Shown here: positions 258 through 56,513 of the stretch, one piece after another
How the letters are laid out: every line of letters starts with the position of its first letter
How positions within the stretch are numbered: the first letter of the stretch is position 1
Assembly (NCBI GenBank): GCA_018711005.1
Contig: DVIT01000019.1
Location: forward strand, 1-64,000
Source of the DNA: Candidatus Scybalocola faecigallinarum
GTDB lineage: Bacteria > Bacillota > Clostridia > Lachnospirales > Lachnospiraceae
Direction: 5' to 3'
DNA: 64,000 nucleotides
Position numbers and translations under genes: made by a program
The notes under the pieces: generated by a model
Seen by the model: the letters and a program-made list of their open reading frames with translations, nothing else
Database searches by the model: none
Told to the model about the DNA's origin: nothing

Positions 258-388
258 GCAGCAGTTCGCCAGCTGAACTGCTGCATGCAAAAAACCATTA
301 AAAATCGCCTTCTGCGATGGGATTTTTGCATACCTGAATCATTTTTTCACGGTCTGCGCAGCAAGTGCTCAGACCTGATTGAACTGTA
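258..388 (+). repeat. Three-hairpin repeat element, copy A (5' UTR of rpn A)
   Basis: GCAGCAGTTC..GAACTGCTGC hairpin, then GCAAAAAACC..GGGATTTTTGC, then GGTCTGCGCA..TGCTCAGACC; flanked by CATAGGGTTC (248-257) and CACAGGGTTC (389-398). Same layout at 54863 and 55495. Confidence 0.85.
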
Positions 389-407
389 CACAGGGTTCCT
401 CTATAAT

Positions 408-1166
408 ATGGAGGAATACATATTGTCAAATGAATTTCAAAAACTAACAATTAAGGATTCTTTTATGTTTGCTGCGGAGAATGGCACGCAAAGACACTTT
501 AATGTGGAAATGCAGGTTGAACGGCCAAAATCACTTCCCCGAAGGACCAGGTACTATCATTCTCAGATGGATATGGATCTTTTAGCATCCGGAGCGGATT
601 ATAACCTTTTACCTAATACTTATGTGATCTTTATCTGTGATTTTGCCATCTTTCAGACCGGTCCCAGATTATATCGGTACACATTCCGCAATCGGTGTGA
701 TGAAGATGGAAGAGTATTGGATGACGGGCATATCACCGTCTTGCTAAGTACTAAGGGAGAAAATGACCCGGAAATTTCTTCTGCTTTAAGACATTTCTTA
801 AAGTATGTGGGAAATCCCGAAAATCCATCCAAAGACACTGCCAATGACAGTTATGTCCGTTCTCTTTCGGCGCAGATCGCAGCCATCAAAAGAAGCCGAA
901 GCTGGGAGGCGAAGTATGTGCTTTTCAAAGAAATCATGAACCAGCAGTGGGAAGCCGGGCATCGTGAAGGACGCCAGGAAGGCCTTTTGGAAGGACGGAT
1001 TTCCACTTTACAGGAAGTCATTTTTCAAAGCTTAGGACAGTACGGAACATTACCTGATTCGCTTGTATCCAAAATTAAAAATGAGAAGGATGAGTCTGTA
1101 CTGACAAACTGGCATCTTGCGGCATTAAAGTCTTCATCTTTAGAGGATTTTACAAATAATATGTAA
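408..1166 (+). CDS. Rpn family recombination-promoting nuclease / putative transposase (PD-(D/E)XK), internally deleted copy A
   Basis: MEEYILSNEFQKLTIKDSFMFAA...HFNVEMQVERPKSLPRRTRYYHSQMDMDLL typical of Rpn/PDDEXK_2. The ORF track extends to 285 but 285-407 lies inside a hairpin element; RBS GGAGGA precedes an in-frame TTG at 423. Compared with copy B it lacks 47 aa. Confidence 0.8.
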   Translation: MEEYILSNEFQKLTIKDSFMFAAENGTQRHFNVEMQVERPKSLPRRTRYYHSQMDMDLLASGADYNLLPNTYVIFICDFAIFQTGPRLYRYTFRNRCDEDGRVLDDGHITVLLSTKGENDPEISSALRHFLKYVGNPENPSKDTANDSYVRSLSAQIAAIKRSRSWEAKYVLFKEIMNQQWEAGHREGRQEGLLEGRISTLQEVIFQSLGQYGTLPDSLVSKIKNEKDESVLTNWHLAALKSSSLEDFTNNM

Positions 1167-5176: not shown

Positions 5177-5276
5177 AAAGAAATCCCACAAGGGGATACC
5201 TGTATGCCAAAGGGCATGGCAGGAATAAAGAAATCCCGCAAGGGGATACCTGTATGCCAAAGGGCATGGCGGTAAT
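5177..5276 (+). repeat. 50-bp tandem duplication (2 units) in glnN leader
   Basis: aaagaaatccc(a/g)caaggggatacctgtatgccaaagggcatggc... repeated with period 50; each unit has ATCCCnCAAGGGGAT and ATGCCAAAGGGCAT mini-hairpins. Confidence 0.9.
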
Positions 5277-9640: not shown

Positions 9641-9831
9641 AAACTTCTCCTTTCAAAATACATTTTCCCGAAGTGCCCCGGATCCCCGGCAATCTGCAGT
9701 CCCGGAGCTGCCTTTTGTCCATTCTATCAAAGTTGCAGCAAAGAGTATATTACTTTTTCCGCACATTTTGTCAAAAAACTGCACTATTGTGCCCGCCCGG
9801 CAGCATGGCCGAATAGTGCCGGTCACATAAT

Positions 9832-9855
9832 AACAGTTCAGTCAGCTAAACTGTT
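9832..9855. repeat. Degenerate P1-type palindrome
   Basis: AACAGTTCAGTCAGCTAAACTGTT; directly follows another inverted repeat GCACTATT..AATAGTGC (9781-9819). Confidence 0.6.
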
Positions 9856-9965
9856 GCATCACATAACATATTTTACCAAAATTGTTTGGCTTTTTTTCGG
9901 AAAAAGTAGTATTATAGACTATGAGTATGACTCACAAAAAGTAATAACCGATAAAAAATGTACAA

Positions 9966-51277: not shown

Positions 51278-51529
51278 CGTCTTTCTGAAAATCCTGCGTA
51301 ACAGTTCAGCCAGGTCTGCCTTCCGGCATATACATCATGGGGTTCGAAAAAGCTCTGACACATAAAGGCAGACATGGTGTTATGAGCCGGGATGATATAT
51401 GCTGATCACCCCGGCTCCTACTGTCACATTTCTTTAATTTTCAGAATAACATAACTTTATACTTTGGACAATTCCCCCTTATTCCCATAAATTATGGGAA
51501 TGAACTGACGGGCCCGTTCACAAAAAAAA

Positions 51530-51669: not shown

Positions 51670-51912
51670 ACGGCATCTTCCCAGGACGTCTGGCCCTGAT
51701 CAAAATCACTAAAATGGATTTCCTGATGCTATTATATTATAGCAATCTGAAAATTATTCGTCAATAAAAAACTTATCTTTTTTACGGCCGCAGGTAACAG
51801 TTCGTTACTGTTTACACAGCAGCCAGACACTTGCTGTATGGCTGCGTAAGAACGTGATTCAGGTGTTCGCAGGCTTCTTTTGCGAAGCAAAATTTCAAAT
51901 AAGCCTGTGAAA

Positions 51913-51946
51913 GTTACTGTTTACTGGCTTGCCAGTGAACAGTAAC
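51913..51946. repeat. P2 palindrome (copy 1)
   Basis: GTTACTGTTTACTGGCttGCCAGTGAACAGTAAC. Confidence 0.9.
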
Positions 51947-51970
51947 AACAGTTCAGCCAGCTGAACTGTT
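51947..51970. repeat. P1 palindrome directly abutting P2
   Basis: AACAGTTCAGCCAGCTGAACTGTT. Confidence 0.9.
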
Positions 51971-51972
51971 AC

Positions 51973-54763: not shown

Positions 54764-54797
54764 GTTACTGTTTACTGGCAAGCCAGTAAACAGTAAC
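54764..54797. repeat. P2 palindrome (copy 2)
   Basis: GTTACTGTTTACTGGCAAGCCAGTAAACAGTAAC, perfect 16-bp arms. Confidence 0.95.
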
Positions 54798-54845: not shown

Positions 54846-54862
54846 ATAAGTACATAGGATTC

Positions 54863-54993
54863 GTACCCGTTCAGTCCGCTGAACGGGTACATGCAAAAAT
54901 CCATTTAAAATCGCCTGCGGCGATGGAATTTTTGCGCCCCTGAATCACTTTCTCACGGTCTGCCCAGTAAATACGCAGACCTGAATGAACTTA
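54863..54993 (+). repeat. Three-hairpin repeat element, copy C (5' UTR of rpn B)
   Basis: GTACCCGTTC..GAACGGGTAC, GCAAAAATCC..GGAATTTTTGC, GGTCTGCCCA..TACGCAGACC; flanked by CATAGGATTC (54853-54862) and CACAGGATTC (54994-55003). Confidence 0.88.
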
Positions 54994-55011
54994 CACAGGA
55001 TTCCTCTATAT

Positions 55012-56036
55012 ATGGAGGAATACATATTGTCAAATGAATTTCAAAAACTAACAATTAAGGATTCTTTTATGTTTGCTGCGGTCATGTCCGATGAGGAACA
55101 ATGCCGGAAATTGCTGGAAATTGCTCTGGACATGAAAATTTTAAGTGTCAGGGTCATCACGGAAAAGACCTTTTCCTATCATCCGGATTACCATGGGGTA
55201 CGACTGGATGTGTTTGCCGTAGAGAATGACACTCAGAGACATTTTAACGTGGAAATGCAGGTGGAACGGCCAAAATCCCTTCCCCGAAGGACCAGGTACT
55301 ATCATTCTCAGATGGATATGGATCTTTTAGCAGCCGGAGCGGATTATAATCTTCTTCCCAATACCTATGTGATCTTTATCTGTGATTTTGCCATCTTCCA
55401 CTCCGGTCCCAGATTATATCGGTACACATTCCACAATCGGTGTGATGAAGATGGAAGAGTATTGGATGACGGACACATCACCATCTTGTTAAGTGTAACA
55501 GTTCAGCCCGCTGAACTGTTACCTGCAAAAATCCATTTAAAATCGCCTTCGGCGATGGGATTTTTGCACTCTTGAATCATTTTCTCACGGTCTGCGCAGT
55601 AGATGCGCAGACCTGGATTAACTGTTACTATTAAATAGAAGAAAATGATCCTGAAATTTCATCTGCTTTAAGGCATTTCTTAAAGTATGTGGAAAATCCC
55701 GAAAATCCATCCAAAGACACCGCCAATGACAGTTATGTCCGTTCTCTTTCGGCGCAGATCGCAGCCATCAAAAGAAGCCGCAGCTGGGAGGCGAAGTATG
55801 TGCTATTCAAAGAAATCATGAACCAGCAGTGGCAAGCCGGACATCAGGAAGGACTCCTGGAAGGGCGCATTGCTACTCTGCAGGAAGTTATTTTTGAGAG
55901 CTTAGAGCAGTATGGGACATTGCCTGAAACACTTGTATCAAAAATCAGGAACGAAAAAGATGAGTCTGTTCTGAAAAGCTGGCGCCGTACCGCGTCAAAG
56001 GCAGCATCTTTAGAGGATTTTACAAAGAATATGTAA
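55012..56036 (+). pseudogene. Rpn family recombination-promoting nuclease / putative transposase, copy B, interrupted by hairpin element
   Basis: MEEYILSNEFQKLTIKDSFMFAAVMSDEEQCRKLLEIALDMKILSV..GVRLDVFAVENDTQRHFNVEMQ; reading frame broken at 55495, resumes after 55628 (EENDPEISSALRHFLKYVENPE...). Confidence 0.88.
55495..55628 (+). repeat. Three-hairpin repeat element, copy B (inserted in rpn B coding sequence)
   Basis: HP1 GTAACAGTTCAGCCCGCTGAACTGTTAC 55495-55522; HP2 GCAAAAATCC..GGGATTTTTGC 55525-55567; HP3 GGTCTGCGCAgtagaTGCGCAGACC 55589-55613; right end AACTGTTAC. Confidence 0.93.
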
Positions 56037-56274
56037 ACAAACTGCAACCGGAAGATCTCTTGACGGTATACGCCTGAGTTTTTGAAGGTATCCGCCCCAG
56101 TTTTTCCAAAACACAAAAGATAAGGTGAGAAGGATCACAGGAAAACCCGTTAAACTAGCCTGGCCTTTTGAACCCAGCTTAAGACATTCTCTTATGCTTA
56201 CGGTTTAAGGCAGGTTCTGGATAAACCAGAGGAATCCTGTGCTCACTGCAGATAAAAAGAAAATATGATTTTCA

Positions 56275-56345
56275 GAACGGATAGGCGAAGAATCTGTAAC
56301 AGTTCAGCCAGCTGAACTGTTACAAGAATCTTCACCTATCCGTTC
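56275..56345. repeat. 71-bp nested palindrome with P1 core
   Basis: GAACGGATAGGCGAAGAATCT[GTAACAGTTCAGCCAGCTGAACTGTTAC]AAGAATCTTCACCTATCCGTTC. Confidence 0.92.
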
Positions 56346-56513
56346 CTCGTATCATCCGCTTTAAATATCTTCCTCCATTAAGATTTGTTAAGAAGCCTTT
56401 CAGAATCTGTTAAGGTACCGGTGCCATAATAAGAACCATCAAAGGGAAAAAGAAATCCCATAAGGGATGCCCCTTATGCTGAACAAAGGTCAGCATAACA
56501 AATCAAGAAAGGT

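Follow-up and report, generated by a model that had tools for sequence, protein, structure and literature searches.

Three hairpin-rich elements at rpn genes in the window, by which is meant the whole stretch of 64,000 nucleotides of Candidatus Scybalocola faecigallinarum DNA that was analysed, quite probably belong to a family of non-autonomous miniature inverted-repeat transposable elements (MITEs), in which the pairing of an internal core is kept as DNA and for which Rpn is a host and not the motor. Miniature elements are usually regarded as decayed remnants in which the ends alone matter. Here, across 26 genera, the shape of the core persists although its letters do not, apparently at the level of DNA, and the core occurs with two kinds of ends; this opens to direct test whether the folded DNA of such a bacterial element does something in its own right. 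Copies are numerous in a dominant gut family, more than 100 of them in one genome, and they interrupt genes and their leaders.

The preliminary description reported three copies of about 133 bp with a common layout of HP1, HP2, HP3 and a right end, and this layout was confirmed at all three positions, named c1, c2 and c3 in Table 1, with HP2 and HP3 found in all of them alike. The HP1 arms pair as first given, GCAGCAGTTC with GAACTGCTGC, GTACCCGTTC with GAACGGGTAC, and GTAACAGTTC with GAACTGTTAC. The right end was also said to be complementary to the left; this holds in c3, where the complementarity is near-complete, but not in c1 and c2, whose right ends have decayed to GAACTGTACA and GAACTTACA, respectively. 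In these two copies the HP1 arms changed together and the right ends stayed behind. The placement of two copies in rpn leaders and one in an rpn ORF was correct as to position, but the leader copies do not appear to represent two events: the rpn locus that holds c1 and c2 is duplicated, its flanks are homologous to the left and right of the element (83% over 65 bp upstream, 92-94% in the rpn coding sequence), and since the two copies also occupy the identical leader position, they are most likely one old insertion duplicated along with rpn. The copy c3 is a second, separate insertion. The unoccupied-site equivalent of c2 is ACAGGATTCCTCT, found in the leader of another rpn gene of the same genome (L204).

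A fourth member in the window, unseen in the preliminary description, was detected by the covariance model with 86.6 bits. This type-B element is nested in an older type-A palindrome; the 8-bp duplication AACAGTTC flanks it at 51796-51803 and 51947-51954, and the flanks rejoined with a single AACAGTTC read GTAACAGTTCAGCCAGCTGAACTGTTAC. Solo HP1 palindromes accompany the longer elements (Table 1). Such palindromes retain 8-bp duplications and carry loops as in the HP1 of full elements, the one at L282:10776 being identical to the type-E HP1. In full elements the right end repeats the HP1 3' arm in direct orientation. Because target duplications and full-copy HP1 loops are retained, the 25-30-bp solo palindromes would be post-insertion relics left by deletion between these two direct repeats; alternatively, the 28-bp units might move independently. 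A lone GTAACAGTTCAGCCAGGTCTGCC at window 51298-51320 resembles a remnant of a type-A right end. A 50-bp tandem pair at window 5177-5276, with a third partial copy 51 kb off at 56447-56479 (AAAGAAATCCCACAAGGGGATACC...), is unrelated to the element.

Table 1. Elements, parts of elements and associated repeats in the window
Feature	Position	Strand	Remarks
Copy c1, type A, 133 bp	258-390	+	rpn1 leader; covariance-model match 280-377, 87.9 bits
Flanks of c1	250-257 / 391-398		TAGGGTTC / CAGGGTTC; target duplication, 7/8 match
Type-B member, 143 bp	51804-51946	-	layout as type A, hairpin letters different
Interrupted type-A solo palindrome	51794-51803 (left part) / 51955-51972 (right part)	+	left part GTAACAGTTC; right part follows second copy of the duplication
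Solo type-B HP1 palindrome	54764-54797	+	no visible duplication
Copy c2, type A, 133 bp	54863-54995	+	rpn2 leader; covariance-model match 54886-54983
Flanks of c2	54855-54862 / 54996-55003		TAGGATTC / CAGGATTC; 7/8 match
Copy c3, type A, 134 bp	55495-55628	+	within rpn2 ORF; covariance-model match 55518-55615, 108.2 bits
Flanks of c3			TGTTAAGT / TATTAAAT; 6/8, decayed duplication
HP1 of c3	55495-55522	+	left terminal repeat GTAACAGTTCAGC and its complement
HP2 of c3	55524-55568	+	11-bp outer stem, 5' internal loop ATTTAAA, 6-bp apical stem, loop TTC, one bulged G
Linker of c3	55572-55589	+	TTGAATCATTTTCTCACG; family consensus CTGAATCAYNTTYTYACG; final G is first base of HP3
HP3 of c3	55589-55613	+	10-bp stem, loop GTAGA (family near GYAAR)
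Right terminal repeat of c3	55616-55628	+	complements left repeat
Solo HP1 palindrome, 28 bp	56296-56323	+	perfect 8-bp duplication AAGAATCT; about 260 bp downstream of rpn2
Degenerate solo HP1 palindrome	9830-9857	+	flanks GTCACATA / ATCACATA, 7/8
Inverted repeat bracketing rpn	390-402 / 1333-1345; 54995-55007 / 56228-56240		also at L204 and L211

Mobility, which had been proposed from the three copies, was borne out by 8-bp target duplications, by the nested insertion and by the many sites occupied, it being the duplications in the sequence that point to movement. At a match of at least 7/8, such duplications flank 41 elements bounded by the type-A end, and 77 elements of 25-243 bp when four end variants are combined. 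The lengths of elements bounded by the terminal inverted repeat (TIR) peak at 28, 42, 133-134, 143 and 165 bp; complete copies mostly measure 133-143 bp. Furthermore, a type-C relative splits another rpn ORF, on contig C2, where xGTTTTGT stands at either side, and a paralogue has the empty site CCGTTTTGTAGC. Additional copies were found genome-wide: a DNA search of the same genome gave eight near-complete copies, several partial ones and numerous solo HP1 palindromes of 28 bp. With at most one mismatch, the 13-nt TIR GTAACAGTTCAGC has 98 occurrences in this genome versus 0 for the reversed control, and 217 versus 4 in the congener G003; the exact TIR is present in 98 of 396 Lachnospiraceae genomes. 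Hosts in one exact-pattern scan were Candidatus Merdenecus, Limivivens, Pelethocola and other Lachnospiraceae MAGs. At the very ends of four contigs of G000 (C13, C14, C17 and C24), type-B linker copies lie within the first 30-120 bases, so the assembly was probably interrupted at these points by a longer repeat of which the element forms part. Matches covering 65-90% of the element length at 77-83% identity were seen in five unannotated "Bacteriophage sp." records from human faeces (MT836459.1, MT837311.1, MT839789.1, MT839453.1 and MT836432.1), which may be phage or bacterial carry-over; a plasmid collection searched for the element gave no match.

The core consists of HP2, a linker and HP3. 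A relaxed search with the linker retrieved relatives with unrelated hairpin letters in an unchanged order of HP1, HP2, linker CTGAATCAYNTTYTYACG, HP3 and right end. The exact linker pattern was found in 30 of the 396 genomes and in 26 genera, versus 0 for the control in every genome, with the highest count of 103 copies in G403; some single linker matches (e.g. L241, L249, L259) look like chance. In its family form HP2 has an outer stem, a mostly ATTTAAA-like 5' internal loop, an apical stem of 5-6 bp and a three-base loop, often with a single bulged G, and HP3 has a stem of 10-11 bp and a loop near GYAAR. Across genera the hairpin letters turn over almost completely while the pairing persists. 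In an alignment of 25 sequences with fixed columns, 92.8% of the cells were paired, compared with 68.0 +/- 1.2 after shuffling and 31-49% when slid, and the covariation score was 0.637 versus 0.182 +/- 0.016 for shuffled sequences; both-sided changes occurred in 19 of 26 pairs, and RNAalifold agrees. These counts were taken from the fixed columns, the best-stem parse (97% paired) being set aside as biased towards pairing. HP3 read at fixed offsets, without a stem search, was 84% paired versus 23-44% when slid. The earlier suggestion that the fold is kept by compensatory change is thus supported by a covariation that exceeds both the shuffled and the slid controls. A covariance-model search of the same genome and its relatives recovered many further copies, including copies in genomes outside the training set of the model, all matches being from family f1 except one, G621 (f17).

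Whether DNA or RNA is folded had been left undecided in the preliminary description, and the scarcity of G-T pairs together with a random orientation to genes points to pairing at the DNA level. The fixed columns hold 544 Watson-Crick cells, 2 G-T (2/546) and 4 A-C, and one-sided changes are almost missing in the core stems; in a tRNA control from the same loci, a sample of only 10 genes, G-U made up 15 of 237 pairs. The near-absence of G-T pairs implies that the pairing is apparently kept in DNA or on both strands, rather than in a one-strand RNA. A structured RNA riding on a mobile element, either a small RNA or a cis-regulatory leader whose RNA fold is under selection, would agree with the strong covariation, with the conserved loops and linker, and with the position of L255, L037, c1 and c2 just upstream of genes. 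Selection on a one-strand RNA should, however, favour G-U over A-C, and the lack of any such excess argues against it; the elements are also unbiased in orientation to neighbouring genes (13 versus 19 for codirectional neighbours), and Rfam, searched at gathering and at lax thresholds, yielded no match to a named RNA family, which makes this explanation rather unlikely. A one-strand RNA gene, leader or terminator as the main role is argued against by the G-T and orientation results. Both strands of a transcript may nonetheless be functional, and pairing kept on both would likewise lack G-T. Bidirectional terminators or insulators, in which both strands fold and G-T pairs are hence also removed, are consistent with the near-perfect palindromes, with the symmetric lack of G-T, and with 57 of 60 element loci not being spanned by a long ORF. 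Terminators are nevertheless quite unlikely: of the 51 copies with two classified neighbours, 14 have divergent genes around them and only 5 have convergent ones, the alignment has no conserved T tract, and the conservation of the linker is left unexplained.

Pairing could also be maintained by mutation bias alone, through template-switch correction of quasi-palindromes and without selection on the fold. Such correction would produce paired changes without wobble intermediates, as observed, and it would suit c1 and c2, whose HP1 arms changed jointly with no corresponding change in the right ends. It is unlikely as the whole explanation, as the conserved linker, loops, internal loop and spacing over 26 genera would remain unexplained, and the solo palindromes show mostly single-arm changes. 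In the comparison of HP1 and solo arms, 63 such changes were counted versus 11 paired ones, so that pairing is not strictly kept everywhere; this comparison does not separate selection from template-switch correction.

The separability of ends and core is the most interesting result of this analysis. Genus g230 holds copies that have GTTAC ends and 8-bp duplications (L304, L318, L338) as well as at least 14 copies at different sites, in which the core lies between another HP1 (TATGCATTCTTGAACATGAAGTTCAAGAATGCAT) and another right end. These 14 copies (G714/G520), the single set from which the TA-border result comes, show TA at the majority of their borders and lack an 8-bp duplication. In the other direction, GTAACAGTTCAGC ends were found around unrelated, hairpin-rich cores of 165-243 bp. 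Since the core is seen with other ends and the GTAACAGTTCAGC ends with other cores, ends and core are separable; and as unrelated cores share the TIR, movement as such does not require the three-hairpin core. Elements with other cores, GTAACAGTTCAGC ends and 8-bp duplications lie at L053:1700-1864, L106:1501-1665, L191:2743-2916 and L179:19004-19214, with sizes of 165, 174 and 211 bp. At L264:1420-1560 (G176) the family core sits between yet other ends (HP1 CCATGAGTTGCAAACAACTCATGG), and cores at L308, L339 (G665) and L309 (G691) have additional HP1 or end types, e.g. ATAGTTTTTTGTCACTTCG, which suggests that more than two end families exist.

Since the core is retained when the ends change, its pairing would serve the element as folded DNA, and a cruciform or single-stranded hairpin formed by the core may help the element to move, replicate or persist. 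A broader proposal, put forward tentatively and with less than even confidence, is that the HP2-linker-HP3 core is a folded-DNA module serving mobile elements independently of their transposase; it draws on the core being kept both with GTWAC ends and 8-bp duplications and with TA borders. attC sites and single-strand origins are read by shape, and by analogy the module might work in a single-stranded or cruciform state, for example as a replication or host-factor entry site, any specific role being speculation.

A transposase acting in trans would recognise the ends and insert the element by 8-bp staggered cuts. In the sampled DNA no autonomous partner turned up: among TIR-bounded elements with duplications, sought up to 8 kb, none exceeded 243 bp, and the ORFs adjoining unpaired TIRs included no recurrent one and no recurrent transposase. 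The transposase may have been lost from the sampled genomes, or its ends may have diverged. IS66 was considered as the partner and rejected: a PF03050 search found none in the same genome, and the copies that could be delimited have other ends when read, namely GTAA[GC]CGTC..., GTAAATGGTAAA and GTAAACGGTAAAA.

Bacterial MITEs are shorter than 500 bp, have terminal inverted repeats and target duplications, and lack a transposase (PMC10969869, PMC2229807). The elements described here measure 25-243 bp, below 500 bp and too short for a transposase gene, are bounded by GTAACAGTTCAGC ... GCTGAACTGTTAC and related types with repeats near GTWACWGTTCASY, and carry 8-bp target duplications in the 77 elements and in the nested insertion. 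By these tested features the element is a MITE, and it is distinguished from the MITEs of those two reviews (PMC10969869, PMC2229807) by a structure-defined core and two kinds of ends. It resembles Correia/NEMIS, RUP, QMITE and Chunjie in being intergenic, rich in stem-loops and present as copies truncated to tens of bp; it differs from usual MITEs in its GTWAC ends and 8-bp duplications, where TA is common, and in a core whose defining traits are its structure and an 18-nt linker, whose hairpin letters turn over almost entirely and which is found with two end types. CIR elements of Caulobacter and its relatives have two hairpin arms, a linker and cross-species conservation (PMC2229807). Compared by description, the present elements share with them two linker-joined hairpin arms conserved between species, but they occur in another phylum, no common motif was noticed, and it is the linker that is conserved here whereas CIR has GANTC in a terminal loop. 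IS66 and its MITEs are similar in their 8-bp duplications and GTAA-starting ends, complete IS66 copies starting with GTAACCGTCAAATAA or GTAAGCGTCAAATAA; however, the ends diverge past the first bases, and some members of the present family start with GTTAC. REP/RAYT systems make no target duplication and have a linked tyrosine transposase. REP sequences are high-copy short palindromes located mostly between genes (PMC2817692), a description that also suits the present elements; these, in contrast, have 8-bp target duplications and terminal inverted repeats, with no recurrent ORF at unpaired TIRs. Searches of the open literature with the end and linker sequences returned no relevant paper, and a general search of the MITE literature gave no description of the family.

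An Rpn PD-(D/E)XK protein had been put forward as a possible mobiliser. Three insertion events at rpn genes of the window genome and a copy in L088 located about 160 bp away from an Rpn fragment are in keeping with this, but elements occur in genomes without Rpn families: neither PF12784 nor PF04754 has a match in G144 (13 linker copies) or G391 (3), and the element-bearing G006 has none to PF12784. Moreover, no type-A TIR lies within 1.5 kb of non-window Rpn loci in five genomes, and the rpn genes examined from the window clade are mostly broken. An enrichment near rpn genes, as the preliminary description would predict, was not seen either, with an Rpn homologue within 1.6 kb at only 3 of 60 element loci, two of them from the window genome. 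Rpn-free genomes that bear elements, Rpn loci without the TIR and the low co-location together make Rpn very unlikely as the motor. Seven PF12784 matches and 14 matches to the window Rpn protein are present in the window genome. A mild excess of insertions at rpn (leader, ORF and the C2 rpn ORF) is found in that one genome, which fits decaying genes tolerating insertions. Relative to rpn2, rpn1 (window 423-1166) has an internal deletion of about 130 bp covering part of the PDDEXK domain; rpn2 is split by c3, and the clade's copies on C59 and C2 look damaged as well. A 13-nt inverted repeat flanks the rpn genes of this clade, its upstream copy reading ACAGGATTCCTCT and its downstream copy AGAGGAATCCTGT (Table 1). 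The two copies might mark the termini of a mobile Rpn unit; alternatively, leader and trailer might pair through them and so expose or mask the GGAGGAA ribosome site.
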